Both the position numbers and the translations under genes were made by a program. Shown in pieces: positions 19,783 to 35,953 of a stretch of 35,953 nucleotides of DNA. Each line of letters starts with the position of its first letter. The first letter of the stretch is position 1. This stretch comes from a virus: positions 1 through 35,953 of IMG/VR virus record IMGVR_UViG_3300028844_002848; one strand, 5' to 3'. Below the pieces are notes generated by a model. The model made no database searches and was not told where the DNA came from. It saw only the letters and a program-made list of their open reading frames with translations.

Positions 19783-19784
19783 GA

Positions 19785-20162
19785 TTAAACATCGTATTCA
19801 GTATTATTTTTATCACTCTTTTCTTTAAACAACTCCCTTAACATATCTTTATCTTTTTCTGTTATAGAATCGTTAGTAGGTACCTGTTTATCATCACTTT
19901 TATCAGTTACTATTTGACTTTGTAGTTTAGCTAAAGATAGTTTTTTATCTATAGCAGTTTCTAATATTTTAAGTGTTTCATTATTAACTTTACCTATCTG
20001 ATATTCATCATTTACATCGTCAATCTCAGCCCTAGTTTTCCTTTCATTTAGTTCTTTTCTAGCACTATTCATTATATTAACACAATCATTATAAATTTCT
20101 TGCATAAATTCTTGTAGACTATCTTTATCTAAATTAATTTTAGTTTTCTTAGGGCGACCCAT
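19785..20162 (-). CDS. Small helical protein (MGRPKK start)
   Basis: 125 aa, basic start MGRPKKTKINLDKDS, then long helices (LQEFMQEIYNDCVNIMNSAR, KILETAIDKKLSLAKLQSQI) and an acidic polar tail. The helical core ending in 'LAKLQSQIV' resembles the small helical domains of phage terminase small subunits, and the basic N-terminus would suit nucleic acid contact, so it is an alternative small-terminase candidate. A regulatory partner of the neighbouring late sigma factor is also possible. Both are inference. A putative late promoter box precedes it and the large tail gene follows after two bases. Confidence 0.65.
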   Translation of the reverse strand: MGRPKKTKINLDKDSLQEFMQEIYNDCVNIMNSARKELNERKTRAEIDDVNDEYQIGKVNNETLKILETAIDKKLSLAKLQSQIVTDKSDDKQVPTNDSITEKDKDMLRELFKEKSDKNNTEYDV

Positions 20163-20177
20163 ATCTTTTATTTAACT

Positions 20178-20185
20178 ATAAATAT
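20178..20185 (-). promoter_or_regulatory. Putative late promoter box (ATATTTAT, minus strand)
   Basis: On the minus strand it reads AGATATTTATAGTTAAATAA, with the box ending 15 bases before the ATG at 20162. It would head the tail operon (19785 down to 14736). Confidence 0.4.
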
Positions 20186-20200
20186 CTAAAAAATAAAATT

Positions 20201-20953
20201 TTAAATTAAACCATCGTCAATTTTATCATTTTTCAAAAGAACGTATATCTTCTTAAACCTTCTCATAGATACTCTAATATCTTTTGTGGTTAAATCAGAC
20301 ATTTCTCTTATATATGATAATATCAAATTTTTGTTGTATTTGTTACCACTTTCTACTTGTTCAAATATGGTTTCCCAATTATCTAAAACAGTGATTAAAG
20401 AATTACCTACCTTTATTTCGTTTTCAGATAACTTAGTACCACTATTATCTGACAATTCCTTTTTAATACTATCTGATATCTCACAGATAAACACATCTAA
20501 TGGTGTTTTATCGTTATCTTCTATATTATTATAGATGAAATCATCCATAGTTTCTATAGTCTTATAAACATCATCATACCTTATATCAGTCCTCACTTTC
20601 TTATCATCTTTAATTAATTGACCTAAAAGATAATGTTTACAAATAGTACCAAAATAAGAATATGCCTTCTTATTTTTATCGGGTTTAAAATTATGCATTT
20701 TAGTTACTAAAAATGAAAGAGTATCAGCATGCATATCCTCAAAAGTATAGTCTTTACGATATAACTTATATCTCCTAATAATAGAATCTATCATTTTATT
20801 TATAGGATGTCTAAGATAATCATTATATATTTTATTCCTTTCACTATACGACTCAGAAGTTAAAAATTCAACTACTGCAGTTTCTTGTTCAGGTCCAAAA
20901 TATAGGTTTGTTGTTCTTTTACGACCTCTTTTTTTAGGTTGTTCTTCCGACAT
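20201..20953 (-). CDS. Late-transcription sigma factor (gp55-like)
   Basis: 250 aa. Region 2-like helices run from about residue 50 to 118: DSIIRRYKLYRKDYTFEDMH, FLVTKMHNFKPDKNKKAYSY, FGTICKHYLLGQLIKDDKKV. The phrase 'FNPDK..KAYSYF..I..' is characteristic of T4 gp55-type sigma factors, which direct host RNA polymerase to short -10-only late promoters. A further helical domain lies at about 145-240 (ILSYIREMSDLTTKDIRVSM), which could act as a short region-4-like segment. The N-terminus is basic (PKKRGRKRTT). It lies directly upstream of the tail operon it probably controls, and eight bases after the GT2 gene stop. Confidence 0.85.
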   Translation of the reverse strand: MSEEQPKKRGRKRTTNLYFGPEQETAVVEFLTSESYSERNKIYNDYLRHPINKMIDSIIRRYKLYRKDYTFEDMHADTLSFLVTKMHNFKPDKNKKAYSYFGTICKHYLLGQLIKDDKKVRTDIRYDDVYKTIETMDDFIYNNIEDNDKTPLDVFICEISDSIKKELSDNSGTKLSENEIKVGNSLITVLDNWETIFEQVESGNKYNKNLILSYIREMSDLTTKDIRVSMRRFKKIYVLLKNDKIDDGLI

Positions 20954-20961
20954 AACATATT

Positions 20962-21741
20962 TTAATTTTCATATGTTATCTCTCTATCTTCAGTGAAAAA
21001 ATATTCTTTTTTAGCTTTATTAACCCAAAACTTACTTTCTAACACATCAATAGTATTTTTATATTCTACAAATAACGAACCTTCTCTATTGTTAGTATGT
21101 TTATAACCTAACTTTGGTATTACCATAATAGTTACGTCATTATAAGACATCCTTAACAAAAATTCATATGTGAATGTTAACTTCATATTAGTTTTTAACC
21201 CACCTGATTCTAAGAACAACTCTTTTTTCACTATCATACCATCAAAATTAAAATTCTGAACTTTCTGTAGTGTGTTATTATCTAAAACACCCATAACTTC
21301 ACTAAATTCTTTAGCCCAAACACTTTCATTAGTAAATGAGATAAATTGTCCATTTTCATCAGTTTCATAAACTATCGGTAAAAATACGCCAACTTCAGGG
21401 TATGAATCGATATATTCAGACCCATTTTTAATCCATATCGGGGATAATTCATCGTCGTACTCTACAAATGTGAAATATTCTGTTTCACATTGTTCAACAC
21501 CGTAATTGATTTGGGATTGGAAATCATAATTCCCTGTTTCATTATGGATAACTTTTGTTATTTCCTTTAAATCACCAAAATCATAAGTTTCTAAAAACTT
21601 AGTTAAATTAGTATCGTCTGATCGAACAATTAAAACTTGATCAGGTATCGTCTTTTGATTTTTTATACTTTCAACACATCCGTTAATGTATTTTTCTTCT
21701 AACTTATGGATGGGTATAATTACTGTTATATTATTTGACAT
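20962..21741 (-). CDS. Glycosyltransferase, GT2-like (GT-A fold)
   Basis: 259 aa. It begins with the GT-A nucleotide-binding strand ITVIIPIHKLEEKYINGCVE and reaches a DxD-like metal site VEYDDELS at 93-100; NFDGMIVKKELFLESGG (about 165-180) is the acceptor-loop region common to GT2 proteins. It probably transfers a sugar from a nucleotide donor in the cytoplasm. It stands next to a GT4-type gene and the late sigma factor, apart from the main sugar locus, which suggests a job tied to virion assembly, for example virion protein glycosylation. The minus-strand leader contains TATAAATATAAATT just before the ATG. Confidence 0.85.
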   Translation of the reverse strand: MSNNITVIIPIHKLEEKYINGCVESIKNQKTIPDQVLIVRSDDTNLTKFLETYDFGDLKEITKVIHNETGNYDFQSQINYGVEQCETEYFTFVEYDDELSPIWIKNGSEYIDSYPEVGVFLPIVYETDENGQFISFTNESVWAKEFSEVMGVLDNNTLQKVQNFNFDGMIVKKELFLESGGLKTNMKLTFTYEFLLRMSYNDVTIMVIPKLGYKHTNNREGSLFVEYKNTIDVLESKFWVNKAKKEYFFTEDREITYEN

Positions 21742-21761
21742 AATTTATATTTATATTTTTA

Positions 21762-22886
21762 TTATTTTTCAGTTACAACTGTTTCTTGTTCTTGTAATTT
21801 GGTTACCATAGTTTGTAATTCAACAGTCCTATTAGTAAAAAGTTTACTATATACTTCATTAAGTACCTCATCAGATGTCTCAACAGTATACTTATCTTGA
21901 TATTCTTTCATACCATTTAGAATGTTTTCAGGTAACGCATCCTCTAAATATAAACCAACCATAGTTGCAACAACATCAGGAATTGAATTTAAATTAGCTG
22001 TCCATATACCATTATCATTTAAGTTTAAGTTACCATTTTCATCTACAGTACCCATCCATTCAGGAACCATTCTAGGTATTTTACCAATTACTGGAGTGTT
22101 ACACTTCATAGATTCTATTGGGAATGTACCGAAACCAGATAACTCATCTAACCAAACACTAACAAAAGACTCTCCTAATTGTTTAGCGAAATCTTTTCTT
22201 GGTAATCCTGACATATCTCTAAAAGTAACAAACCTATAGTGTGGGTATTTCTGATAGAATATTTTAACTATCTTTAACAACTCTCTTTTGTCTCTAGATG
22301 ACATAGCAATTGTTGGTACCTTTGGTTTATCACTATTTGTGAAATAATCTGGAATACCTATAGGAATTTCATTTACATTCACACCTCTAAATAAAGACTT
22401 AGCATAATCACTAAGGTTTTTATTTGTAGTGATAACGTCTCTAATATTAAATTGTTCCCAACCTTCTCCAATCTCTAACATTTCAAAGATATATTCGTAA
22501 GATTGTAAAAATATCACTCTTTTACAAGGGAAATCTTTAGTTTGTTTCATTACACTAGCAAAAGCTTCAGGTATGATTACAAAATCTTGTGGACCAACTT
22601 GTAACTGTTGGGACTCTATAGAAATATGTGGTAAAGTAGCATATTCTTCACCCAACCATTCAGCGATACCCATACCTTCTTCATCTTCTCTTAATTTATA
22701 ATCGTTTTTATCGTGAAGTATCTGTGCGTTATAACCTAAGTCTCTAAGTTTTTTAGCATGTTCATATATTGTTGCAACACCGGCTGTTGGGTTACCTTTC
22801 GTATCTAACGTAAAAAAATAAATACCGAAGTCTTTGTTTTTAATTTTTTCGATAGAATTTTTAATGTTTTCTAATTGTTCACTCAT
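21762..22886 (-). CDS. Glycosyltransferase, GT4-like (GT-B fold)
   Basis: 374 aa. The N-terminal Rossmann half starts with FGIYFFTLDTKGNPTAGVAT and YEHAKKLRDLGYNAQILHD. The C-terminal half contains TIAMSSRDKRELLKIVKIFY and the GT4 donor-site signature SGFGTFPIESMKCNTPVIGK (the E of PIES being the conserved glutamate). A hydrophilic Gln/Glu/Thr tail ends it. It probably works with the adjacent GT2 gene; the two are 20 bases apart. The acceptor is unknown. Retaining transfer from a UDP- or GDP-sugar is typical of the family. Confidence 0.85.
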   Translation of the reverse strand: MSEQLENIKNSIEKIKNKDFGIYFFTLDTKGNPTAGVATIYEHAKKLRDLGYNAQILHDKNDYKLREDEEGMGIAEWLGEEYATLPHISIESQQLQVGPQDFVIIPEAFASVMKQTKDFPCKRVIFLQSYEYIFEMLEIGEGWEQFNIRDVITTNKNLSDYAKSLFRGVNVNEIPIGIPDYFTNSDKPKVPTIAMSSRDKRELLKIVKIFYQKYPHYRFVTFRDMSGLPRKDFAKQLGESFVSVWLDELSGFGTFPIESMKCNTPVIGKIPRMVPEWMGTVDENGNLNLNDNGIWTANLNSIPDVVATMVGLYLEDALPENILNGMKEYQDKYTVETSDEVLNEVYSKLFTNRTVELQTMVTKLQEQETVVTEK

Positions 22887-22909
22887 CTTTTTTTTATTTT
22901 ATTTTATTA

Positions 22910-23227
22910 TTATAATTCTTTTAATATACCCTTCATTAATAAAGTATTAAATGATAATTTAAATGGTGTACTAGTAGAATTCAAACCTACCATACCCATT
23001 TTATTGTCGATCTGTTCATTATATGATAACAATGAACCTATCATTTCTCTATACATCTCATATTTGATGACATCTAACTGTATACCTATCGTCTCAACTA
23101 CAGGTATGGAGTCGTCAACTACTTCTTCTTCAACATTAAAGTCATCTTCAATCCTACATATTTCAGATAACCTTTCAATATCAAAATACAATTCTTTCCC
23201 ACAAATTTCTAGTAATAAACTTTCCAT
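22910..23227 (-). CDS. Hypothetical small acidic protein
   Basis: 105 aa, acidic in the middle (RIEDDFNVEEEVVDDS) and hydrophobic at the end (FKLSFNTLLMKGILKEL). It is in line with the surrounding minus-strand genes, 23 bases before the GT4 gene. An opposing frame on the + strand across the same bases is longer by a few codons, but strand context and the absence of overlap with the GT4 start favour the minus-strand gene. No recognised domain. Confidence 0.55.
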   Translation of the reverse strand: MESLLLEICGKELYFDIERLSEICRIEDDFNVEEEVVDDSIPVVETIGIQLDVIKYEMYREMIGSLLSYNEQIDNKMGMVGLNSTSTPFKLSFNTLLMKGILKEL

Positions 23228-23270
23228 ATTTTTTATTTAAATTTTATAGTAAAAATATTATAAGTAAACA

Positions 23271-23900
23271 TTAAACATCTTCAAAATCTACTGTTTCAGT
23301 ATTTAACACTTTTTCTAATATTTTTTTATCGTCTACTAACTCTTTTAAATCTATTATGGTATAATCAGATTCACAATCTTTATTATAGTGGTTAATGACT
23401 TTAATAGAAACTTTACTTCGTGGTTTAGTATCTAATGTCGTAGGATTAGCTGTGATTAATATATCTACATGTTCCCACTTTTTATCAAAATCTCTAACGA
23501 AAATAATATTATTAACTTTAGAAGATAATTTAGATAAGAAGAATAATGTTGCTGGTTTACTATTATTTAACTCCTTACTTATCACTATAGGTGTGTGACC
23601 CATATCCTCAATTAAATTATGTAACTGATTTAAATGTTCAACACTATTTAATTTAGTCTCACCAGCGTGTCCGAAAATCTCTAATGATGACTCTACATAC
23701 ATAAATTCATTTAGTTGTTTTGTACCACCAGAAAAATCAAAGTAGTCTAATAAATCTAAAGACTTAATATTTCTTTCAGGTGTTTCCACACTTTCTTCTT
23801 CACCCTCTTCTAATGGTAAAGGGTTGTATTTGTCGTAAACCGACTCGAACTTTGTGATGAAATCTCTTATGACACCATCTATTGTTATACCTACTCTCAT
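23271..23900 (-). CDS. HAD-like protein with altered motif I
   Basis: 209 aa. The N-terminus MRVGITIDGVIRDFITKFES has the shape of HAD motif I as in 5'(3')-deoxyribonucleotidase-like proteins (hhhDxDGV), but the first Asp, the nucleophile, is replaced by Thr (T-I-D-G-V). Later segments fit the fold: HTPIVISKELNNSKPATLFF as motif II-like region and HVDILITANPTTLDTKP as motif III/IV-like. Loss of the nucleophile suggests it is not a phosphatase; it may bind nucleotide or serve a structural role. It lies nine bases after the phoH remnant in the same direction. HAD assignment is moderate. Confidence 0.65.
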   Translation of the reverse strand: MRVGITIDGVIRDFITKFESVYDKYNPLPLEEGEEESVETPERNIKSLDLLDYFDFSGGTKQLNEFMYVESSLEIFGHAGETKLNSVEHLNQLHNLIEDMGHTPIVISKELNNSKPATLFFLSKLSSKVNNIIFVRDFDKKWEHVDILITANPTTLDTKPRSKVSIKVINHYNKDCESDYTIIDLKELVDDKKILEKVLNTETVDFEDV

Positions 23901-23909
23901 ATAAAATTC

Positions 23910-24577
23910 TTATTTATCAGTTGAGTCCTCAATGTCTTCGAATATATCTTCGATAACTTTTATTATTGGATTTCTTACGACATCTTCTTGTTCCCTTAAC
24001 TCAACAGTACCAAAACCTTCAATGTCTTTAAACTTATTTAAAACAATCTCTAAAGAACTATCTTTTTTGTTTCTAATATCTTTTTGTCTAACATCTCCCA
24101 TAATAACCATTTTTGAGTTACTTCCAATTCTAGTCATTAATGTTCTAATATTATCCATAGATATGTTTTGAGCTTCATCAATTAATATTATAGAATTATC
24201 TATACTCCTACCCCTAGCGAATGCTATTGGTACTATTTCGATTACCCCTAATTCCATCAATTTTTCCATTCTAGATCTACCAATAATTTTTCTTATATTA
24301 TCGGTAAATGATTCCATAATTGGTGCCATTTTTTCTTTTAAATCACCAGGTAAATGCACGATAAATATGTTTTACCACTTCCTGGTAATCCACTACAGAT
24401 GGTAATTTCATTTTGTTTTATTGAGTTAACTAATTTTTTCTGGTTAACACTTTTACATTTGACGTTTATGGAAATTGTTGAGAAGAGTTTGTCCTCTTCA
24501 ACATTGTTTCTATTAAGATAATCTTGCATTTCAATTATCTCTTCTTCCGGAATTTCTTTATATTTTCTTCTACCCAT
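23910..24577 (-). pseudogene. phoH: phoH-like ATPase, broken by internal deletion and frameshift
   Basis: Two overlapping minus-strand frames together resemble one PhoH P-loop ATPase. The upstream half (24338-24577, 79 aa) carries the N-terminus and Walker A GLPGSGKT (63-70) and then reads TYLSC before running out of frame to a stop. The downstream half (23910-24359, 149 aa, opening with GTG in a different frame) starts at LPGDLKEKMAPIMESF and has Walker B ILIDEAQN (58-65) and sensor-like MGDVRQKD. In intact phage PhoH proteins roughly 30-40 residues, including the conserved strand before 'GFLPGDL', lie between these points; they are missing here. The frame change implies a deletion length of 3n+1. 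Natural decay, an assembly error, or two separately made halves are possible. Confidence 0.8.
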
Positions 24578-24629
24578 ATGTTAATAATAGTGTGTTAATT
24601 AAATATTGTGAATGTTATTTCCTAATATT

Positions 24630-25628
24630 TTACGCGTATATAATATCCTTTTCTTTATAATATGCTAACCAATACTCTACCATCTCATCTAACATCGTTT
24701 TAAACGTATATTTAGGTTCCCAACTCAACTTACTTCTTAATTTAGTAGAATCACCTTTTAAATCGGTTAATTCTTCAGGTCTCATATGTTTACCTGAAAT
24801 GACAACATAGTTTTGATAGTTTAAATCTAACTTAGTGAATACATAATCACAAAGTTCTTTAACTGAATGTGAAACGCCAGTGGAGCAAACATAATCATCA
24901 GGGTTATCAGTTTGTAACATTAACCACATAGCTTCAACATAGTCTTTAGCGTGTCCCCAATCTCTAGTTGCGTCTAAGTTACCTAAATGTAAATTATCCT
25001 GTAACCCTAATTTAATTTTAACTGCCGCCTTAACAACTTTATTGGTAACAAAATTAGTTCCACGTCTTGGTGATTCATGATTGAATAATATTCCATTCCA
25101 TATTTTCATTCCATATGAGTTTCTATAATTCCTACAAATATTATATGAAAATACTTTTGCACACCCATAAGGTGATACTGGTGATAGGGGCGTTGATTCT
25201 CTTTGGTACCCATCATTATCAATATTGTTACCAAACATTTCTGATGAACTTGCTTGATATATTTTAGATTTTGGTGAAACCATTCTAACTGCCTCTAATA
25301 AATTAAGTGTCCCTAACCCAGTTGCGTTTGCTGTGTAAATTGGTTGATCAAAACTAACTCTTACGTGTGATTGCGCAGCTAAATTATATATTTCATCTGG
25401 TTGAACCTCTTTTAAAACTCGCACTAAGGATGACATATCAGTTAAATCAGCGTATTCTAAATTAATTTTACCTGATGAACGTAAATGTTCTATCCTTGTT
25501 GATTGAGTTTCAGATACGGAATTACGTTTAACTGTTCCCCATACTTCATATCCTTTTTCTATTAAAAATTCTGCAAGGTAGGACCCATCTTGTCCGTTAA
25601 TTCCTGTTATTAGTGTTGTTTTTCTCAT
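24630..25628 (-). CDS. gmd: GDP-mannose 4,6-dehydratase
   Basis: 332 aa extended short-chain dehydrogenase that converts GDP-D-mannose to GDP-4-keto-6-deoxy-D-mannose, the precursor of GDP-fucose, GDP-rhamnose and GDP-perosamine. NADP-binding GINGQDGSYLAE at 9-20, NLAAQSHVRVSFDQP at 82-96 (typical of GMD), SSSEMFG at 127-133 with S128/E130, catalytic Y154-x3-K158 (SPYGCAK), NHESPRRGTNFVTNK at 183-197 and DATRDWGHAKDYVEAMW at 219-235 are all present and intact. It is the last gene of the sugar locus in transcription order. A perfect 12-base palindrome lies two bases before its start. Gmd genes are known in cyanophages and chloroviruses. Confidence 0.95.
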   Translation of the reverse strand: MRKTTLITGINGQDGSYLAEFLIEKGYEVWGTVKRNSVSETQSTRIEHLRSSGKINLEYADLTDMSSLVRVLKEVQPDEIYNLAAQSHVRVSFDQPIYTANATGLGTLNLLEAVRMVSPKSKIYQASSSEMFGNNIDNDGYQRESTPLSPVSPYGCAKVFSYNICRNYRNSYGMKIWNGILFNHESPRRGTNFVTNKVVKAAVKIKLGLQDNLHLGNLDATRDWGHAKDYVEAMWLMLQTDNPDDYVCSTGVSHSVKELCDYVFTKLDLNYQNYVVISGKHMRPEELTDLKGDSTKLRSKLSWEPKYTFKTMLDEMVEYWLAYYKEKDIIYA

Positions 25629-25630
25629 TC

Positions 25631-25642
25631 GATAATATTATC
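25631..25642. promoter_or_regulatory. 12-base palindrome before gmd
   Basis: GATAATATTATC is a perfect palindrome ending two bases before the gmd ATG and within the 31-base gap to the previous gene. It could be an operator or RNA-processing site. The prohead protease start has a similar-sized palindrome of different sequence at 9845-9856. Confidence 0.25.
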
Positions 25643-25659
25643 AATAAATTCACTTAAAG

Positions 25660-26103
25660 TCAATAGTTCGTGATATAATCGCTACAAATACCAATACATT
25701 TAGTCACATCATCATTGTTGATCTCTGGCATTACCGCAATACTTCCCTTAGTTGGTTGTTTACCAGGGTATGCCCAAATGTAATTAAGAGATGTTAATGT
25801 TACATCATCCTCTTGATGCCAAAAGAAGTGTATTGGGTGTTCAGAGTTTTGAAAGTATACTAGCGATTCTATATTCTTACAATGAACCCATAATTTTTTT
25901 ATTCTCTCTATAAAAAAATTAATAGTGACACCATATTGTGGTTTATCATGTCCTAAAAAAATAAGGTTTTTATGTTCAGGTAAAACCCACACATCAACCT
26001 CAACGTCATATCCATTTTTAATGGCTATGTCGATATAATTTGGTTCATTCTCATATGATTCAAATTTACCATTAAGGTTACCTCTATGTGATATTAATTT
26101 CAT
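25660..26103 (-). CDS. Short GDPD/PI-PLC-like protein
   Basis: 147 aa. Begins KLISHRGNLNGKFESYENEP, the His-Arg-Gly opening of glycerophosphodiester phosphodiesterases, followed by NGYDVEVDVWVLP (metal-binding acidic strand, E-V-D) and FLGHDKPQYGV (second His, GHD). The later LWVHCKNIESL fits the lysine strand 'CKN'. Full GDPD barrels are about 240 aa, so this is a short form, similar to small family members found in polysaccharide loci. It may hydrolyse a phosphodiester in a glycan or lipid-linked product; the substrate is unknown. Six bases separate it from the upstream sulfotransferase gene. Confidence 0.75.
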   Translation of the reverse strand: MKLISHRGNLNGKFESYENEPNYIDIAIKNGYDVEVDVWVLPEHKNLIFLGHDKPQYGVTINFFIERIKKLWVHCKNIESLVYFQNSEHPIHFFWHQEDDVTLTSLNYIWAYPGKQPTKGSIAVMPEINNDDVTKCIGICSDYITNY

Positions 26104-26109
26104 TTAATG

Positions 26110-26838
26110 TTATATTATTTTATAATTGAAGTAATTTAATAATTCATTATTATCATTAAAATATTCAGTCTTACTTTCACCATCCTTTATTGATGTTACC
26201 TTTTTTAACTTACCAAGTCTACCATTACCAGGGCTATTTATAATTATTTCTGGCCCCAAAGAACCTATAAATGGCATTTTATTTAATATTTTATTGGAGA
26301 CTACGTGAATATCATCACACAATTCTTCATATGTTATTAGTATTGAATTATCTTTGTATTTTTCATAAGTATCTTTTTGCATCTGAGCAAATCTATCCCA
26401 TAACTTATAAGAAATTTCTTTGGGGGTTACATTCAAAGTATTCTTACCACCAAAATGACCACTACCGTAGTTTGTAGTGTATGGGTCTCTTATTTGTATT
26501 ATAAAATAAACCTCACCCCTTTTACTGAAATAGTCATATATCTTATCAGCTCTAATAATGTTTGGCGGTGATTTATCACATAAAACTGGTTTACTCATAT
26601 CCCAATTCCTATTAAAATGTTTTTCGGTTAACTGGAAATTAATTTCATAATCTTTATTCCATCTATTTTCAGAATATAATTTATCAGTATTGGCGATAAA
26701 ACATTGACCCTCACCCATATGTGGAGCCTTACCTAAAAATGTACTAACAGATGGTGACGTATCCATTAAGCGATAGATAAGTGTTGACCCTTGAAACGGT
26801 GGGCATAATATAAATAAATATTTTTTACTCAAAATCAA
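26110..26838 (-). CDS. Sulfotransferase
   Basis: 242 aa. PAPS-binding features are visible: the 5'-phosphosulfate loop PPFQGSTLIYRLMDTSP at 13-29 (compare PxxSGTT of the family) and the 3'-phosphate site YFIIQIRDPYTTNYGSG at 111-127 with R117. It probably transfers sulfate from PAPS to a sugar hydroxyl. It overlaps the upstream SGNH hydrolase gene by 14 bases, so the two are cotranscribed and probably act on the same glycan. It is unrelated in sequence to the second sulfotransferase at 32.8 kb. Confidence 0.82.
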   Translation of the reverse strand: MILSKKYLFILCPPFQGSTLIYRLMDTSPSVSTFLGKAPHMGEGQCFIANTDKLYSENRWNKDYEINFQLTEKHFNRNWDMSKPVLCDKSPPNIIRADKIYDYFSKRGEVYFIIQIRDPYTTNYGSGHFGGKNTLNVTPKEISYKLWDRFAQMQKDTYEKYKDNSILITYEELCDDIHVVSNKILNKMPFIGSLGPEIIINSPGNGRLGKLKKVTSIKDGESKTEYFNDNNELLNYFNYKII

Positions 26839-27458: not shown

Positions 27459-27779
27459 TTAATCTACGTATTTATCATTACTAACCGATGGTGTCTTAAC
27501 AACGACTGTTACAACGTCTGTTAAACATTTAAAATCAGTACTCTCATTCGGTTTTATTATTATTATATCATCCTTACCATATTTAATACCATTCATCTCA
27601 ACATCACCACTAACTATTGCAGTGTATTCTATTGCTATCTTATGGTGATGTTTTTCTTCATAGTCACCCTCGTCATATCTTTTTATTGCCACTTCGAAAT
27701 CATTGGTGTCATTTAATGTTGGTTGGAAGTTACCGATGAACCACCCTTTAAACATGACTTCTAAATTAAACTTATCCAT
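27459..27779 (-). CDS. Cupin-like protein
   Basis: 106 aa from the ATG at 27779, which gives an 8-base overlap with the upstream gene; a start 11 codons earlier adds MMLYTLTKNII and is less likely. The single cupin barrel shows YEEKHHHKIAIEYTAIVSGD with three consecutive His as metal ligands, then KYGKDDIIIIKPNESTDFKC. Cupins in sugar loci are often isomerases, epimerases or small sensors. The fold is fairly clear but the reaction is not. Confidence 0.75.
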   Translation of the reverse strand: MDKFNLEVMFKGWFIGNFQPTLNDTNDFEVAIKRYDEGDYEEKHHHKIAIEYTAIVSGDVEMNGIKYGKDDIIIIKPNESTDFKCLTDVVTVVVKTPSVSNDKYVD

Positions 27780-28572
27780 TATAATATTTTTTGTTAATGT
27801 ATATAACATCACACTCCCCGATAGAACCTTTTAGTTCATTTAAAGATGTGACTTCCCTACTACCCATATGGAATGTTTGTAATTCTATAAAACCTTTACT
27901 TAATAATAGATTATCTAACTCATCTTTTAGGATCGATCCACTATACATATGTGATATCTCAACTTCGCTACAAATACATTTAACGTTATTAAGTATATCA
28001 CCACAACCTTCGAATACCATTTTTTCTGCTCCTTGAACATCTACCCATAATAGATCGACATTATCTACCTTATTAATCCTACACCAGTCATCAATCCGTA
28101 CCACGTCAACCTCAACCTCTCTTTGTGGCCAGTTTCTACTTCTAGGGTGATCGTTAACCTGCAATAAAGACGATGCACCGACATTATTAGAAGCGATATA
28201 AAACTTTGTTTTACCATTAAAATCACCAGCCGCCTTAGGTACTAATGTAACATTTTGATTTTTTAATACATTTTCACATAGACTTATTTGATTAGGGTTA
28301 GCTTCAAAGGCAACAATTTTAGCATCTGGAAACCATGTTCTGAACTCAACACTCTGATACCCATCCCTACTACCAATGTCCAGTATGGTATTTACTTCGT
28401 TAAAGTCTATAAAATTTGAGATAGTCTCAATAAAATCAAATGTCCACCATTTATTAACTGGTTGACCTGTGGCATATATAGTAGCATCTACCCTATCAGT
28501 ATAAACCTTATTAGAAGGTATCTTTGGATTTATTAATCTATATTTCATAGGTGTTAGTCTGTGTTTATTCAT
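27772..28572 (-). CDS. FkbM-family methyltransferase
   Basis: 266 aa SAM-dependent enzyme. Motif I TILDIGSRDGYQSVEF lies at 62-77, the acidic ribose-binding E90 in IVAFEANPNQ, and WVDVQGAEKMVFEGCGDIL (about 175-193) is the characteristic FkbM block. The family O-methylates sugars and small molecules. It overlaps the upstream HAD-nucleotidyltransferase gene by 8 bases. A second Met at residue 9 is an alternative start. It probably caps or decorates the glycan made by neighbouring transferases. Confidence 0.9.
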   Translation of the reverse strand: MNKHRLTPMKYRLINPKIPSNKVYTDRVDATIYATGQPVNKWWTFDFIETISNFIDFNEVNTILDIGSRDGYQSVEFRTWFPDAKIVAFEANPNQISLCENVLKNQNVTLVPKAAGDFNGKTKFYIASNNVGASSLLQVNDHPRSRNWPQREVEVDVVRIDDWCRINKVDNVDLLWVDVQGAEKMVFEGCGDILNNVKCICSEVEISHMYSGSILKDELDNLLLSKGFIELQTFHMGSREVTSLNELKGSIGECDVIYINKKYYNG

Positions 28573-29935
28573 AATTATCTAAAAATTTATTTAAATCTTC
28601 TGGTGTACCTAGACCCCACATTTTATTTATATTATATATTTTAACCTTCTTCCCATCTAATACAGCTTCATTATAAACTGGTGCGACATAAAATTCACCA
28701 TTCACTCTAATATTTTTTTCTATCATTTGTTCTGCATATTTCACATAGTCTGAACCCCTACTCCAGTGATAGATACCCACAGTTGCAATATTACTAATAG
28801 GTTTCTTTTCTGCTAACTCTGTTAGGTAACCATTAACGTCTAATTTAACAAAACTCCACTTAGGGTGTGTTGACTCAAAGGTTAAAATAGAACCATCTAT
28901 TTTAACATCACTAGCCGAATAATAGAAATTATTACTATCCCATTCTATAAATTGATCAGAATTAGCGATTAGTAAATGTTTATCATTATCAATATAATCT
29001 TTTGCTAATAATGTAGTACATGCGGCACCTTCAGTAACACCATCGACTTGTATTATCTTACAGTTCGGTGTGATTAAATTTAATAAATATTTTAAGTTAT
29101 ATTTCTCATAATGTTCTTTCTGAACTAAATAAATAAAGTTAGCTTTAATGTTAAGATTCTCAACGATAACCTGTATCATTGGTTTATGATTAACCTCGAT
29201 TAGTGGTTTTGGAAATGTATACCCTGCATTAACAAACCTTGAACCAGCACCAGCCATCGGTATTACTACATTGAATTCATCAGTCACCCATTTAGTTTTA
29301 CCACCATCACTATCGTTGATGTCTCTTATTTGTTTATCTATTTTTTTATAAGTCACACCTTCAGGTGTATCAACGGCACAAAGATAACCACCAGAATCAT
29401 TTGCTGACTGTCTACCATGATAACTATCCTCTATTATAATAGTTTCTGATGGTTTAACATCTGCATGTACCATAGCCCTCAAATAAATTTCAGGACTTGG
29501 TTTAGGTGATTTAACATCATCATTTGAGAGGTAATAATCAACAAACTCAATTAACCCAGTTTTATACAACATCAATTTAAGACTCTCCCTAATCGAATTA
29601 CTACAAACGTATACTATATAACCATCATTCTTTAACCGTTGGAGTACTGACCTTAATCTCTCATCAAAAGGTAATTTATCTTTTATGACTGAGGCAGTTA
29701 ATTCTTGTTTCCTTTCCCATATTTGGTTGTGTGTTGTTTTTGGTAGCCCTTTAGTTTCAGTAAGTATATCTAATTTTTTTATAGTAGGTAAACCATCAAA
29801 CACATTCATGTGTTCTTCCCTATCAATTATAAATTTTTCATCTACTTCAGATAGTGATCTATTTAATGACTCATAATGTATTTCTTTAGCATCAACTAAT
29901 ACACCATCTAAATCGAATATTACTAATTTAATCAT
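28565..29935 (-). CDS. Fusion: HAD phosphatase + sugar nucleotidyltransferase
   Basis: 456 aa, two complete domains. Residues 1-205: a HAD hydrolase of the beta-phosphoglucomutase/phosphatase type, with motif I FDLDGVL (D8, D10), a helical cap, CSNS (S112), K145 in KSPKPSPEIY and IIIEDSYHG (E169/D170). Residues 222-456: an NTP-transferase domain, VVIPMAGAGSRFVNAGYTFP with PKPLIEV (K243), later LLIANSDQFIEWD as metal site and HPKWSFVKLD. Such a protein could remove one phosphate from a sugar bisphosphate (or act as a mutase) and then activate the sugar-1-phosphate to an NDP-sugar, the logic of the heptose GmhB/HddC steps. The substrate is unknown. It overlaps both neighbours by 8 bases. Confidence 0.9.
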   Translation of the reverse strand: MIKLVIFDLDGVLVDAKEIHYESLNRSLSEVDEKFIIDREEHMNVFDGLPTIKKLDILTETKGLPKTTHNQIWERKQELTASVIKDKLPFDERLRSVLQRLKNDGYIVYVCSNSIRESLKLMLYKTGLIEFVDYYLSNDDVKSPKPSPEIYLRAMVHADVKPSETIIIEDSYHGRQSANDSGGYLCAVDTPEGVTYKKIDKQIRDINDSDGGKTKWVTDEFNVVIPMAGAGSRFVNAGYTFPKPLIEVNHKPMIQVIVENLNIKANFIYLVQKEHYEKYNLKYLLNLITPNCKIIQVDGVTEGAACTTLLAKDYIDNDKHLLIANSDQFIEWDSNNFYYSASDVKIDGSILTFESTHPKWSFVKLDVNGYLTELAEKKPISNIATVGIYHWSRGSDYVKYAEQMIEKNIRVNGEFYVAPVYNEAVLDGKKVKIYNINKMWGLGTPEDLNKFLDNYE

Positions 29936-30614
29936 TTATTTCTTTTAATTTTTTTATTGTTATTTCATCGGACACCTCAAAAGCAATATTTTTATTCGGT
30001 TTGAGTATCTGAACTGTTGAGTGTGGGTTCATTGAGAAATCATACCTTAACCTAATTCTTTTAGACCACTCAACATCTTCACCTTGTCCCCAACATAAAC
30101 CTTCATTTAATGGGAAGTCTTTCATTACACTTTTCTTTGCCACCCAGTAACTACCAGAAACATACATATATTTAGATAAATTCTTGATATCGTAAGGTAT
30201 TAAACACTGACGACCAATTAATTTGTCCATGAAGTTCCCATTATTTGGCCAAATACACCAATCCCTAAACCGTTTACCTTCTTTTGTTAATATCTTATCA
30301 ACCCTAACTTTATAATCATCTCCAGCAGTTAATTGACCATCGTACCACCCACTATTAAATGATATATAATCATGCATAAATACAATATTATCATACATTG
30401 CGTTAGAAGTTATTAAATTTTTCTTTTTAGTAATCCATCTTTGTTTTTGTGTCTCATCAAACGGTATAATATTAACGTGTTCTCTCTTAATATTAGATAA
30501 ACCAATAACTATTACCTCATAATTAGGTATTTTCTCACGCTGAATTGAGTCTATGATGGTGTTAATCATAACATCATTCCCACCCCCAGTTATTATTCCA
30601 AATGTAAAATCCAT
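29928..30614 (-). CDS. Glycosyltransferase-like protein (GT-A fold)
   Basis: 228 aa. FTFGIITGGGNDVMINTIID at 3-22 and NYEVIVIGL are the nucleotide-binding half; NIVFMHDYISFNSGWYDG (about 76-93) replaces the DxD loop with HDY, and YVSGSYWVAKKSVMKDFPLN and CWGQGEDVEWSKR (around 174-186) are the acceptor-side motifs with the ED pair. It therefore looks like a divergent GT2-type sugar transferase. Sixteen bases separate it from the fucosyltransferase-like gene. Substrate unknown. Confidence 0.8.
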   Translation of the reverse strand: MDFTFGIITGGGNDVMINTIIDSIQREKIPNYEVIVIGLSNIKREHVNIIPFDETQKQRWITKKKNLITSNAMYDNIVFMHDYISFNSGWYDGQLTAGDDYKVRVDKILTKEGKRFRDWCIWPNNGNFMDKLIGRQCLIPYDIKNLSKYMYVSGSYWVAKKSVMKDFPLNEGLCWGQGEDVEWSKRIRLRYDFSMNPHSTVQILKPNKNIAFEVSDEITIKKLKEIND

Positions 30615-30628
30615 ATAAATAGTTTTGT

Positions 30629-31444
30629 TTAAATATAGTCTACGTTAGTAAAATTATCAATATTATCCCACCTAGTAAAGTTCATTAATTTATTAAAATA
30701 TATTTGACCATCACTTAGGTAAGCAGCTAAGATTGAGAATGTACTTAGTCCTGTCACTAAAATATCAATAGATGACAACATCCTAAATGTTTCAATATCT
30801 GAACCATCTAAATGAAATACTACATCACTACCCTCTAACTCTTTAAATGTGTCAACCGCCCCTTCTGAGAATATATGAAATTTAACTGGGTTAGGGTATT
30901 TTTTATCCCTTAATGTATCCATCAGTTTAAGATAATCATTTAATTCTAACCACCTATTACTATTACCTTCTTTCGATATATCCCCACGTCTTATGTGTAA
31001 TCCTATATTGGTGTTATCAGTTTCAAAAACATACTTTGTCTTATCTAACCAATAAGACTCTTTGAATCTATGGGCGTAGTTTATAATTTTCTCACTTAAT
31101 ATCCCTGGAAATGTATCGAATGGTATTACAAATAATGTTCCATCATCAGCATCTTTAATAATATCAACCCACACTTTAAGATTACCATTGGCGAGTCTTT
31201 CATCATAAGATGGGTTATGACCTAAATCTAAAATAGGTAAATTGACCGTATTTTTATAATCTGCGGTAGACTCAAAAATAGTATTAAAGTTAAATACTTT
31301 TTCCCACTTTTCAGATTTACCACTGAATGGTTTGTGAATGTATTCACAATTAGTTAATTCACTTAACACCATACCAGTTGACATATTATGAAATTGGTGA
31401 CCTAATCTCCCATTGTGGTTGGGTTGTGTTGTTATATACTTCAT
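30629..31444 (-). CDS. GT11-like (alpha-1,2-fucosyltransferase superfamily) protein
   Basis: 271 aa. Begins with NGRLGHQFHNMSTGMVLSEL (11-30), the NxxGNQ/LGHQ-type opening of GT11/O-fucosyltransferase-like enzymes, and has the signature IGLHIRRGD at 147-155, with the HxRRGD motif that binds GDP-fucose. A third block, SSIDILVTGLSTFSILAAYL (about 224-243), matches the 'SSFS/STFS' motif III. The donor is probably GDP-fucose or a related GDP-6-deoxyhexose, which fits gmd in the same locus. An AAGGAG sequence 8 bases before its ATG comes from the coding end of the upstream gene. Confidence 0.82.
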   Translation of the reverse strand: MKYITTQPNHNGRLGHQFHNMSTGMVLSELTNCEYIHKPFSGKSEKWEKVFNFNTIFESTADYKNTVNLPILDLGHNPSYDERLANGNLKVWVDIIKDADDGTLFVIPFDTFPGILSEKIINYAHRFKESYWLDKTKYVFETDNTNIGLHIRRGDISKEGNSNRWLELNDYLKLMDTLRDKKYPNPVKFHIFSEGAVDTFKELEGSDVVFHLDGSDIETFRMLSSIDILVTGLSTFSILAAYLSDGQIYFNKLMNFTRWDNIDNFTNVDYI

Positions 31445-31446
31445 AT

Positions 31447-32004
31447 TTAAATCTCCTTAAACCAAACTCCGTCAGAACTTATTTTAAAATCCTCTATCAA
31501 ATCATTAACTGCTTCTTTAACACCACATGGATTATCATAATCATGACCACTAATAATCCCACCCTTCTTCATTTTTGGTAACCACGATTTAATGTCTTTA
31601 ACTACAGAGTCATACTCATGATCAGCATCAATAAAAACGAAATCGACAGTACCATCTTCAAAGTTATTTGACATATCCCAAGACATACCTTTTAAATCGG
31701 TGATCATATCATACACACCGTTTTGTTTTTTAATTTCATTATAAATGTCATATAAGTAAGGCACTTGACTTCTTAGTTGATCGTTACCCTCCCATTTATA
31801 CGTCTCATCCCATAAATCAACACCATATATGTCACAGTCATAACCTAATTCTTTCATTTGATTGGCGAGGAATGAGATAGAGTGTCCTTTCCACACACCA
31901 ACTTCAACTAAAACATCATAGTTTTTATTTGCAATCATTTTATAAAAATCCTGATAATTAAACCACCAATCAGTATTTAAGTTTTCTTTAATTATTTGTT
32001 CCAT
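31447..32004 (-). CDS. Class I SAM-dependent methyltransferase
   Basis: 185 aa. Motif I is VLVEVGVWKGHSISFLANQM (31-50), followed by IYGVDLWDETYK as the acidic strand and DFVFIDADHEYDSVVKDIKS (about 120-139), a block typical of the Methyltransf_24/CmcI-like group; GGIISGHDYDNPCGVKEAVN closes the domain. It probably methylates a sugar or other small molecule, with metal help from the Asp/His residues. It overlaps the GT10 gene by 17 bases and ends two bases before the GT11-like gene. Confidence 0.87.
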   Translation of the reverse strand: MEQIIKENLNTDWWFNYQDFYKMIANKNYDVLVEVGVWKGHSISFLANQMKELGYDCDIYGVDLWDETYKWEGNDQLRSQVPYLYDIYNEIKKQNGVYDMITDLKGMSWDMSNNFEDGTVDFVFIDADHEYDSVVKDIKSWLPKMKKGGIISGHDYDNPCGVKEAVNDLIEDFKISSDGVWFKEI

Positions 32005-32833
32005 TTTGTATTACTTTAATTTTTTTATTTATCACCTCCCAAATATTATATTCATCTAATATTAGATCCCTGGATTCTTTAATCTTCACTATATCGTCAT
32101 TGGATATTTCAGTATTAATAATATTATTAATTTCCTCCGTTGGATTATTACTGTCTATATTTAAAACCCTATAACTACCATCTGGAAAATATTTATTTAG
32201 ATTAGGGCAACCCCAATATATTGGCATACACCAAGATAAATAAGCATCAGCTAATTTTTCAGTCCAATAATTTTTTTGGGTCGAGTTCTCCATAACTATG
32301 GAATACGAATAATCAATAAGACCGTTAAATTTACAATTACCATTATAATCTAATTCACCCTTATAACTTTCACCAAAGGTAGTAGTATTATGACCCCTAC
32401 CGTATAAATCTATGTTGGGGTTTCCGTAGAATAATTTAGAGATATAGTTTCTTCTATGTGTGTGTTTAGATGAAACGACACAACTAGCATCTTTTGTTTT
32501 AATAGGGTACTCTAAACTTTTTAATTCATCATAAGTCTTACCTAACCAATATGTCACACCACCATTAGTCTCTCTAAAATCAATAATGTGTTTATATTTA
32601 TTATTGGTTAATGGTTTAATAAAATCTGGTTCTCTTTTGATGTATATTGTTTTATCTATCGGTGTGTTAATATTAGACCCCTCTAGGACTATAAAGTAAT
32701 CAGCATCGCTAATGTCTGCAACACCAATAAGATTGTCCCAAACACCTTTAGATTTTGGTGTTTGCTTTGAGTATCGTATTAGAATATCTTCTGTTGACTC
32801 ACCCCAATTATTAATAAAATGAATTTTTATCAC
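31988..32833 (-). CDS. GT10-like alpha-1,3/4-fucosyltransferase
   Basis: 281 aa. The C-terminal half carries the GT10 donor-binding signature: YSIVMENSTQKNYWTEKLAD at 177-196 (compare FxxxFENSxxxxYxTEK) followed by LSWCMPIYWGCPNLNKYFP at 199-217. The preceding VVSSKHTHRRNYISKLF and NIDLYGRGH also fit the family. These enzymes add L-fucose from GDP-fucose to GlcNAc-containing acceptors in Helicobacter, Bacteroides and eukaryotes. The N-terminal acceptor half is divergent. It has no signal peptide or membrane anchor. With gmd and the GT11-like gene it supports a fucosylated (or 6-deoxyhexose) product. Confidence 0.88.
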   Translation of the reverse strand: MIKIHFINNWGESTEDILIRYSKQTPKSKGVWDNLIGVADISDADYFIVLEGSNINTPIDKTIYIKREPDFIKPLTNNKYKHIIDFRETNGGVTYWLGKTYDELKSLEYPIKTKDASCVVSSKHTHRRNYISKLFYGNPNIDLYGRGHNTTTFGESYKGELDYNGNCKFNGLIDYSYSIVMENSTQKNYWTEKLADAYLSWCMPIYWGCPNLNKYFPDGSYRVLNIDSNNPTEEINNIINTEISNDDIVKIKESRDLILDEYNIWEVINKKIKVIQNGTNN

Positions 32834-32844
32834 CGTTAAAAATT

Positions 32845-33441
32845 TTAATATTGAAATTTGAAAATTTCGATATCTTTTTCGTATATCTTATTAACAATTT
32901 CTTTAGTCTCATCATCATAATACTCTTTATAATTATTATGAATCTTATTACTTTTATTGATTGTTTTTAGATTAGGAATGAGAGTTTTAAATAGTTCACT
33001 ACCTAATTCATCTATATTGAAAACATTATCCACCATTATACTATCATTCAAGTCGCATATGTATTTATATTGTGAACCCCACCCTTGATGTTTTAAAAAA
33101 TTACTATCTTCTTTAAAGTTTAGTAACATATCTTTAAATGTAACATCTTTTAAAGTTTCGTAATCAGGGTGAACACCATATTTTCTATTAACATTTTTAG
33201 AATGCCAATAACTTTCTGACATTTTAGAGTATTCGTAATTAGAGACAACCCTATCCCATGGGTCTCTAATTATTGCAAATTTATTATATTCTTCCCATTG
33301 TTTTGGGTAGTTATCTTTATAAAATTTAGACGTATGGTGACCATGCAATTCAAAACCGATATTATCAGACTCAGTTATTGAAGTTCCAGCGTTTTTTGGG
33401 ATGTGAACGAATATTAATTTATTTTTGTTTGATATTGGCAT
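32845..33441 (-). CDS. Sulfotransferase (Sulfotransfer_2 type)
   Basis: 198 aa. The PAPS 5'-phosphosulfate loop is FVHIPKNAGTSI (11-22) and the 3'-phosphate site FAIIRDPWDRVVSNYEY (55-71), with R59. These motifs match carbohydrate sulfotransferases of the heparan 2-O-sulfotransferase-like/Sulfotransfer_2 group. It is compact, with no membrane anchor, in contrast to the Golgi enzymes. It probably sulfates a sugar in the locus product. On the minus strand TATAAATA ends one base before its ATG, but it lies inside the operon, so promoter use is doubtful. Confidence 0.88.
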   Translation of the reverse strand: MPISNKNKLIFVHIPKNAGTSITESDNIGFELHGHHTSKFYKDNYPKQWEEYNKFAIIRDPWDRVVSNYEYSKMSESYWHSKNVNRKYGVHPDYETLKDVTFKDMLLNFKEDSNFLKHQGWGSQYKYICDLNDSIMVDNVFNIDELGSELFKTLIPNLKTINKSNKIHNNYKEYYDDETKEIVNKIYEKDIEIFKFQY

Positions 33442-33535: not shown

Positions 33536-34159
33536 TTAAAATAACCATCTATTATCTTGTTCTCTATTCTGTATGTCACTATAACTAGCTCTTTGTAAAG
33601 CAATACTAGGGTTAAACGAATAACACTCATACCCCTTTTGTATGTCTGAATAATATACGTCAACAGGTTTTTGTCTTTTTTCTAATAAATTAATTACTAA
33701 ATCATAAATAGATTCATTAAAACCAATACAGTGTGTGGAGTAAGTTTGACTACACTTAATTATTTTATCATTTATTAAATTTATTTTATTCCCCATATGT
33801 TTATTATGGTTACCACCGAACCATAAAATGTCCCAATTTTCAGGTAGGGAACTAAAATAATTTCCCACCTTATTTATCTCTTCAGTAAATTCTATATCAT
33901 CCTCTAATAATAAAATATTTTTATATCCATTTTTTTTAGAGTCTTTTATAATACTAAGGTGAGTCTCGATTAAACCTAATTCACCATTATTAACATTATA
34001 GGGGTTATTATTTATCTTATTACCATCAACCGCAGGGTATCTCTCAACCTGATCAAGTAAACCCCATTTTTTTAATTCTTTCTCAGTTTCTTCCCACCTA
34101 TCTTTTCTCCGATCAAGATTTATACAATATATTTTATCAAAATATTTATCTAATCTCAT
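33536..34159 (-). CDS. Glycosyltransferase family 25 protein
   Basis: 207 aa. The N-terminus FDKIYCINLDRRKDRWEETE is the family-25 hallmark; ELGLIETHLSIIKDSKKNGY and ILLLEDDIEF (82-91, E86-D-D) give the metal-binding acidic site; WDILWFGGNH follows. Family 25 includes LPS beta-galactosyltransferases (LgtB type) and collagen galactosyltransferases. Here it probably adds galactose or a similar sugar. It starts with a 4-base ATGA overlap with the upstream two-domain transferase. About 95 bases after its stop hold no clear gene. Confidence 0.88.
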   Translation of the reverse strand: MRLDKYFDKIYCINLDRRKDRWEETEKELKKWGLLDQVERYPAVDGNKINNNPYNVNNGELGLIETHLSIIKDSKKNGYKNILLLEDDIEFTEEINKVGNYFSSLPENWDILWFGGNHNKHMGNKINLINDKIIKCSQTYSTHCIGFNESIYDLVINLLEKRQKPVDVYYSDIQKGYECYSFNPSIALQRASYSDIQNREQDNRWLF

Positions 34160-35559
34160 GTTACAATTTTATTATCTTTAACCTCAAAGTTTTTATACAT
34201 TATTTTCATATATAGTTCTTGAAGATTTTTATTGGCTTCAGTAGACACTGTACCATCTTTTTCGTGATGAAAATACACAAATAATGGTTTAGGTATTCTT
34301 TTACCCACATATCCCTCTTTCATCATTCTAATCCACATATCATAATCTTCCCAACCAGTTAGTTCTTCATCATATCCGTTAACCTTTTCAAAAGCTTCTC
34401 TATGGAACATCGAACAATTAACCATAAATGGTCCTTTTAATAATCTTTCTTTATCCCATTCTGGACGTTTTTCAATTCCTTGCATTTGTCCAACATGATG
34501 TGTATCACAATAAACTGGACTTATTTTTTTATCTCTTTTTAAAATCGCAACACATGTCTTAATGTACCCATCTAAAATCATATCATCAGAATCTAAAGGT
34601 AATATAAAGTTACCACTACAATGTTTAAACGCTTCATTTCTAGCTGAAGATGGTCCACCATTTTCTTTATATACAACTTTAATTTTTTCATTATTTTCCA
34701 GTTGTTTAAGTTTTAATTTCACAAATTCATCAGTTGACCCATCATCAACCAATATAATTTCATAGTTTGTATAATCTTGATTAAAAACAGAATTTAATGT
34801 TTGATTGATTCTATTACCATAGTTGTATATTGGCATTAAAATAGAAACCAAAGGTTCATTCTTCTTTATGTTTTTAGTTTTATATGTGTATGGTATTATT
34901 TGTGGTAACTTATCTTCATATTTTTCCACAAATTGTTTTTTATTATTTTCCCATTGTTCATTTGTTTGACCAATGGATAAATGTGTAATTGTAATATCAG
35001 ATATTACACCTACCTTTACACCATTTAAAAAATTATTAAAACAAAAATCTATTTCATAAAAGTGGAATCCTTTGATAACTTCATCAAAATTAGATTTAAT
35101 ATTATTCTTATTTACAACAAAGAATAAACCATCTACCATAATTGCATCCTCTATTTTATTACCAAAAAATTCATTATATTTAGATAACCATTTTTTCCCT
35201 TCATTCTGGTGATATACTTGACCAACAACTTCTGTCATACCATTATCCCACCAACAACCAGATTTCGGTAGGTATTTCGAACCAGCTTTACCTAAAATAC
35301 CATAATCAGGATTTCTTTTAAAGTGTTTTAATATTTTATTACCCCAATTTTTAGTGTCAAAAACTACGTCATCGTGGCAAAAAACCACAATATCATTTGT
35401 AGTTTCTTTTAAAGCTCTATTATATAATTCAGTTAACCCAAACTCACCATCGTTAATATATTGAATCACTTCTAACCCCTTATAAATCCCAGAAGTTTTC
35501 TTTATATGTTCAATATGGGATGGGTTATCCTTTCTTGTCGAAAATACTACACTAATCAT
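34156..35559 (-). CDS. Two-domain glycosyltransferase (GT-A + GT2)
   Basis: 467 aa. Residues 1-225: a GT-A domain like those in tandem glycosyltransferases, starting ISVVFSTRK, with FCHDDVVFD (60-68, D63/D64) as the metal site and HFYEIDFCFN near 166-175. Residues 236-460: a canonical GT2 domain, VSILMPIYNYGNRINQTLNS, ILVDDGSTDE (269-278), GGPSSARNEA, LPLDSDDMILDGY (320-332) and GWEDYDMWIRMMKEGY. Two active sites suggest it adds two sugars in succession, as in bifunctional polymerases and LPS/O-antigen transferases. No membrane anchor. Overlaps the upstream small gene by 8 bases. Confidence 0.92.
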   Translation of the reverse strand: MISVVFSTRKDNPSHIEHIKKTSGIYKGLEVIQYINDGEFGLTELYNRALKETTNDIVVFCHDDVVFDTKNWGNKILKHFKRNPDYGILGKAGSKYLPKSGCWWDNGMTEVVGQVYHQNEGKKWLSKYNEFFGNKIEDAIMVDGLFFVVNKNNIKSNFDEVIKGFHFYEIDFCFNNFLNGVKVGVISDITITHLSIGQTNEQWENNKKQFVEKYEDKLPQIIPYTYKTKNIKKNEPLVSILMPIYNYGNRINQTLNSVFNQDYTNYEIILVDDGSTDEFVKLKLKQLENNEKIKVVYKENGGPSSARNEAFKHCSGNFILPLDSDDMILDGYIKTCVAILKRDKKISPVYCDTHHVGQMQGIEKRPEWDKERLLKGPFMVNCSMFHREAFEKVNGYDEELTGWEDYDMWIRMMKEGYVGKRIPKPLFVYFHHEKDGTVSTEANKNLQELYMKIMYKNFEVKDNKIVT

Positions 35560-35766: not shown

Positions 35767-35953
35767 TTATTGTTTACCTGTTGATCCGAATCCGCCCTCA
35801 CCTCTTTCAGTATCTGTTAGTGTATTCGTTTTTGTTAATGTTGAAATATTCTGTCCGATAACATTCATAATAACTCCCTGAGCGATTCTTTCACCAGGTT
35901 CTATCGTATAGTCCTCATTACTTAGGTTTACCGCTATTACTCCAACATCTCCT
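35767..35953 (-). CDS. dut: dUTPase, C-terminal part (cut by window edge)
   Basis: The gene runs off the right edge; only the last 61 codons are here, ending at TAA 35767-35769. The translation contains trimeric dUTPase motif III-like GDVGVIAVNLSNEDYTIEPG, motif IV GERIAQGVI and the C-terminal motif V GEGGFGSTGK, the P-loop-like tail that closes over the substrate. The enzyme hydrolyses dUTP to dUMP and PPi, keeping uracil out of phage DNA and feeding dTMP synthesis. The frame is complete and looks functional. It marks the beginning of a nucleotide-metabolism neighbour region. Confidence 0.92.
   Translation of the reverse strand, partial: GDVGVIAVNLSNEDYTIEPGERIAQGVIMNVIGQNISTLTKTNTLTDTERGEGGFGSTGKQ

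Follow-up and report, generated by a model that had tools for sequence, protein, structure and literature searches.

A stretch of phage DNA encodes two putative fucosyltransferases and a GDP-mannose 4,6-dehydratase (GMD, gene gmd), which makes only a 4-keto intermediate, and no GDP-L-fucose synthase (Fcl/GMER, gene fcl) is visible beside them. How, then, would the two transferases obtain their donor? An earlier reading made from the sequence alone (the sequence-only reading) offered three options: fcl lies elsewhere in the phage, the host provides this step, or the sugar is another GDP-6-deoxyhexose such as rhamnose or perosamine.

A complete glycan-modification island in a T4-like phage

The window, by which we mean the whole stretch of 35,953 nt that was analysed, is a virus fragment from a T4-like phage of bacteria. 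It contains a glycan-modification island that runs from the dUTPase gene to phoH. Because the window contains both core flanks, phoH and the C-terminus of dUTPase, the island is complete even though the record is a fragment. The same two flanks are found in a related contig, L005, whose dUTPase is 47% identical to the part in the window. The region 30629-32833 on the minus strand comprises three genes encoding a GT11-type protein, a Methyltransf_24-type methyltransferase, and a GT10 protein. The features of the island and its flanks are:

23910..24577, minus strand: phoH, core flank, broken (PF02562 in two ORFs; tblastn; comparison with L197)
24578..24629, minus strand: 52-bp spacer separating gmd from phoH; fcl occupies this slot in L005 and L007 (sequence)
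24630..25628, minus strand: gmd, GDP-mannose 4,6-dehydratase, 332 aa (PF16363, E=3.5e-122)
26110..26838, minus strand: second sulfotransferase, weak match (PF13469, E=9.3e-5, 23.2 bits, under the gathering score of 27)
27772..28572, minus strand: FkbM-type methyltransferase (PF05050, E=1.9e-17)
28565..29935, minus strand: fusion of a HAD phosphatase and a sugar nucleotidyltransferase, 456 aa (PF13419, E=6.9e-28; PF00483, E=8.4e-11)
29928..30614, minus strand: island protein of 228 aa with no Pfam match (68% identity in L002)
30629..31444, minus strand: predicted divergent GT11-type fucosyltransferase, 271 aa (PF01531, E=4.3e-8)
31447..32004, minus strand: Methyltransf_24-type O-methyltransferase between GT10 and GT11 (PF13578, E=9.2e-21)
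31988..32833, minus strand: predicted GT10 (alpha-1,3/4-type) fucosyltransferase, 281 aa, GTG start (PF00852, E=3.1e-10)
32845..33441, minus strand: sulfotransferase adjoining GT10 (PF03567, E=1.1e-11)
33536..34159, minus strand: GT25-type glycosyltransferase (PF01755, E=2.9e-8)
34156..35559, minus strand: two-domain GT2-type glycosyltransferase (PF00535, E=1.8e-37, two stretches)
35767..35952, minus strand: C-terminal part of dUTPase, core flank, truncated by the contig end (PF00692, E=5.6e-10)

An exact-match search found no further contig past the right end of the window. The capsid and terminase proteins are 27-42% identical to those of the nearest named phages, which infect Microcystis, Flavobacterium, Synechococcus, and others. 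Since these phages are distant and their hosts mixed, assignment of a host by this route was dropped.

The two transferases belong to different fucosyltransferase families

The gene at 31988-32833 is predicted to encode a GT10 fucosyltransferase. The protein scores 40.4 bits against PF00852 (gathering score 23.9) and matches the Helicobacter pylori fucosyltransferase (HpFucT; 2nzw) with E=1.6e-9 in phmmer. HpFucT residues N240, Y246, E249, and K250, which we take to be donor-site residues, align with N183, Y189, E192, and K193, so that all four are conserved. An AlphaFold model of the protein (pLDDT 87) had FUT9 as its top PDB fold match (Z 15.2), and HpFucT matched with Z 12.5; other GT-B enzymes came within 1 Z of FUT9, so the GT-B fold by itself is non-specific. 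Over the whole length, cellular relatives of this protein reach no more than 34% identity. They lie beside gmd in 2 and beside fcl in 3 of 80 loci, and we rejected their neighborhoods as uninformative about the donor. One GT10 relative, at L047:8969-9847, has TRVNED in place of the usual TEK motif and may differ in its donor or catalytic properties.

The protein encoded at 30629-31444 scores 33.2 bits against PF01531 (gathering score 23.9), with a match confined to the C-terminal portion of the profile (positions 162-269 of 298). For this reason, motif and fold comparisons were added. Homologues in L047 and L115 had no Pfam match at E 0.01, and a sequence search of solved structures with the window protein gave no match. 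The protein contains the motifs LGxQ, HxRRGD (HIRRGD at 150-155), and STFS, and it has G15, Q17, S193, S234, and S237 in common with an annotated cyanophage alpha-1,2-fucosyltransferase. A structure model built from three sequences was of moderate confidence (pLDDT 71). The first 43 fold matches to this model were all fucosyltransferases, namely POFUT1, NodZ, FUT8, POFUT2, and AtFUT1 (Z 12.5-11.2); other glycosyltransferases began below them at Z 10.1. Judged by its motifs and modeled fold, the protein is predicted to be a divergent GT11-type fucosyltransferase of the alpha-1,2/alpha-1,6/protein-O superfamily. In L047, the divergent GT11 gene is in tandem with GT10, with a gmd-fcl pair approximately 3 kb away, and in LR756508 the gene order is MT24-GT11-fcl-gmd. 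Peptide patterns, which are strict, found no relatives of this group in 84,980 cellular genomes. The group is a small set of candidate enzymes that is phage-only so far.

The sequence-only reading had proposed two different fucosyltransferase families, and profile searches placed both transferases inside GT10 and GT11 with scores above the gathering scores of PF00852 and PF01531.

The island contains gmd and lacks fcl

The identification of gmd is firm. Besides the PF16363 match, the protein matches TIGR01472 with E=1.7e-119 and 399 bits, slightly under the equivalog cut-off of 415 bits. Its top PDB matches are GMDs, and the segments SSSEMFG and YGCAK, which carry the catalytic Ser/Thr-Glu-Tyr-Lys residues, align with solved GMDs. 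We confirmed that fcl is missing from the window. The sole Epimerase-family (PF01370) match there is gmd, and there is no match to the Fcl profile NF047922. A remnant was also sought by permissive tblastn with five phage Fcl proteins against the window and L002, and none was found; in the window, the best E was 0.09 and above and the top match was gmd itself. With only one Epimerase-family gene, the island also has no RMD or other SDR.

Close relatives retain the missing gene. L004 and L005 (3300008050_004459 and 3300006750_000002) and L007 (3300047373_000579) resemble the window in having GT10, the methyltransferase, a gmd that is 84-89% identical, and the phoH flank, and L004/L005 share a sulfotransferase with it as well. 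They differ in lacking GT11 and in keeping fcl after gmd. This fcl lies between gmd and phoH at L005:16652-17596 and L007:4682-5617, and in L004 it follows gmd with the contig end just beyond. The L005 and L007 genes match NF047922 with E 1e-66 and 5e-68, and Fcl from L007 matches human GMER (4e5y) with E 3.9e-91. A collinear sibling of the window phage, L002 (3300024319_000791), carries GT10, GT11, and gmd along with the accessory genes found in the window and likewise has no fcl. It differs from the window in that a 323-aa protein with no Pfam match (L002:9236-10207) fills the slot between gmd and phoH.

In the window, phoH has a 94-bp deletion at 24356 relative to the contig L197 that splits it into two frames, reflecting either assembly error or strain variation. 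Since this deletion is within 300 bp of the slot, we suspected an assembly fault in which fcl had been dropped along with, perhaps, the 94 bp of phoH. L197 is an independent contig with 99.98% identity to the window over 18286-24356 and 99.93% over 24356-25868. In it, gmd is followed directly by an intact phoH with no fcl between them. This fcl-less junction excludes assembly error as the reason for the missing fcl, and loss of fcl during assembly is scarcely credible. The 31.8-kb record of L197 contains no Epimerase-family gene besides gmd and prolongs the known sequence leftward of the window by approximately 5.8 kb. Approximately 42 kb of the phage is thus known, comprising the window and approximately 5.8 kb in L199. 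Thus, fcl is absent from its place next to gmd in two independent contigs.

In a gmd tree, the window gene is sister to that of L007 (100/93) in a clade where 13 of 16 members have fcl. The fcl labels on this tree were based on profiles; labels based on BLAST only had mislabelled several loci. At least six changes of label are required, indicating that fcl was gained or lost repeatedly. The lineage of the window phage seems to have lost its own fcl or come to do without it, while its relatives keep theirs; we infer the direction of this change (loss versus gain). L007 also has a second, divergent gmd paralogue (L007:2-2226) that adjoins GT10 and is preceded by a C-methyltransferase (PF08484), which suggests a C-methylated GDP-sugar in that phage.

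A loss of fcl could have left gmd as a relic, with host GDP-fucose alone feeding the transferases as in the Synechococcus phage S-SM2, and phages with GT10 and GT11 but neither gmd nor fcl do exist. We consider this very improbable for the window phage, where gmd has its full length, shares 89% identity with the fcl-partnered gmd of L007, is identical in L197, and has catalytic motifs that align with those of solved GMDs.

Phages with GT10 differ in how much of the pathway they encode

We surveyed 47 records with GT10 relatives. Similarity and length guided their selection; the sample is non-random and contains near-duplicates. We found gmd in 28 of the 47 and fcl in 21, always together with gmd. 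Seven records, including the window and L002, have gmd without fcl, and 19 have neither. GT11 occurs together with GT10 in 21 of the 47. The sequence-only reading had called GT10 enzymes in phages rarely discussed, but the idea that they are unusual finds no support: relatives are encoded on at least 595 IMG/VR stretches, and annotated cases occur in cyanophage genomes. The pairing of GT10 with GT11 is not unusual either, given its frequency in the surveyed records.

This survey bears on whether the phage might carry its own fcl in a part of the genome beyond the known sequence, leaving a complete pathway split over two loci. The record is a fragment, and so are all of the gmd-only records (15 to 43 kb). 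Among the 13 GT10 records of at least 100 kb, gmd and fcl are either both present (8) or both absent (5), and none has gmd only. In the huge phage LR756511, 178 kb separate gmd (at 116 kb) from fcl (at 294 kb). However, the gap between gmd and fcl calculated from coordinates is only 11 to 3,552 bp in all 21 GT10 records that have both, whereas in the window phage no fcl occurs within approximately 10 kb in one direction or 30 kb in the other, and the island itself is complete. A distant fcl is therefore possible, if rather doubtful.

Supply by the host has precedents. S-SM2 (GU071095), a complete Synechococcus phage isolate, has GT10 and two GT11 genes and neither gmd nor fcl, and the 232-kb contig L006 has GT10 and no Epimerase-family gene. 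The complete genome of S-SM2 implies that there are phage fucosyltransferases relying on host GDP-fucose, if these enzymes use GDP-fucose. Among close relatives, phage nucleotide-sugar pathways are thus graded from gmd with fcl, to gmd only, to transferases only. This gradation offers a way to test how far phage glycosylation depends on the host, and it means that a phage gmd is no proof of a complete fucose pathway.

GDP-L-fucose is the best candidate donor

Family and fold, neighborhood, and descent point to GDP-L-fucose as the best donor for the GT10 and GT11-type enzymes. It is favored because the same transferase families adjoin gmd and fcl in relatives, including the close GT10 relatives L004/L005 and L007, and because the window gmd belongs to a mostly fcl-bearing clade.

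The sugar could instead be something other than fucose if GMD alone yielded GDP-D-rhamnose or if the 4-keto intermediate were turned into an amino sugar. There is precedent for the first route, as the GMD of the algal chlorovirus PBCV-1 (A118R) has a second, reductase activity that yields GDP-D-rhamnose (PMC9614988). The GMD of ATCV-1 lacks this reductase activity (PMC9614988), so the activity is not general. Evidence consistent with the second route comes from GT10 loci without fcl in which gmd adjoins a gene for a short DegT-type aminotransferase (L009, L034, L042, L055, and L069), and from LR756511, where an aminotransferase-like protein is next to gmd. However, no PF01041 match was found among the island proteins scanned, neither the window nor L197 has a second SDR, and the window gmd falls outside the clade (100/97) that unites the DegT-linked gmds. 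Both transferases are also predicted to be fucosyltransferases by family and fold. We therefore consider a sugar other than fucose unlikely in this phage. Of the options raised by the sequence-only reading, host supply emerges as the most likely and fcl elsewhere in the phage as possible, whereas rhamnose or perosamine is unlikely here since the island has no second reductase and no aminotransferase and its gmd is of an fcl-partnered lineage.

The DegT-type aminotransferases (approximately 200-260 aa) are encoded beside or near gmd at L009:11252-12031, L042:11836-12540, L034:8048-8641, and L055:12757-13380. By eye, a small cupin-like protein follows GT10 in several DegT-bearing loci. A GDP-amino-sugar route of the perosamine type is plausible in these phages, which are cousins of the window phage and not the phage itself. 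An SDR that adjoins gmd in L030, L032, and L046 was considered as an RMD and rejected, because the best PDB matches of the L030 protein were NAD-dependent epimerases such as UDP-sugar 4-epimerases; its match to 2pk3, a GDP-6-deoxy-D-lyxo-4-hexulose reductase, was far weaker (E=1.9e-12).

A model for a split fucose pathway

We modestly favor a model in which the fucose pathway is split between phage GMD and an external Fcl, with fucosylation by GT10 and GT11 and with fcl lost or dispensed with. GMD would convert host GDP-D-mannose to GDP-4-keto-6-deoxy-D-mannose. The epimerase/reductase Fcl/GMER from outside the island, most likely from the host, would then produce GDP-L-fucose. From this donor, the GT10 and GT11-type enzymes would add fucose to a glycan that other island enzymes may also methylate and sulfate. 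The target could be a glycan on the host surface (for instance, as a defense against superinfection) or on the virion, and we prefer neither. In this model we infer the donor, the host supply, and the acceptor glycan.

Parts of this arrangement are already known. The T4-like Synechococcus phage S-SCSM1 (MK867354), known for a cell-wall gene cluster, combines gmd in one genome with fucosyltransferases of several families (POFUT-type, GT11, and NodZ-type) (PMC9602691). It differs from the window in that fcl directly follows gmd and the fucosyltransferases listed for it do not include GT10 (PMC9602691), and its GT11 is 21% identical to the GT11-type protein of the window. Pairs of gmd and fcl occur in further cyanophages, and viral contigs commonly encode GT10 homologues. 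S-SM2 resembles the window in its transferases and lack of fcl and differs in also lacking gmd and in its cyanophage gene context. PBCV-1 (A118R/A295L, GMD/GMER) likewise has a viral GMD that uses host GDP-mannose, but it encodes GMER too (PMC9614988). What is new here is the gmd-only state of the island, shared by both contigs of this phage and the collinear sibling L002, and the small group of divergent GT11 proteins.

Other genes of the island

The Methyltransf_24-type gene has an equivalent position beside GT10 in L002 and L003/L004/L005. Together with the sulfotransferase it forms a recurrent cassette, sulfotransferase-GT10-methyltransferase, at 31447-33441 in the window, L002:985-2967, L005:9401-11549, and L006:9402-11487, hinting at a sulfated, methylated, and fucosylated glycan. 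Downstream of the sulfotransferase and GT10 genes in L006, an APS kinase and a nucleotidyltransferase are encoded (L006:11497-12536), and this phage may make its own sulfate donor. The HAD-nucleotidyltransferase fusion at 28565-29935 is 79% identical in L002, where it is kept together with the FkbM-type methyltransferase, a small HHH-motif protein, an SGNH-like hydrolase, and a 147-aa protein. These proteins may constitute a candidate nucleotide-sugar or head-group pathway.
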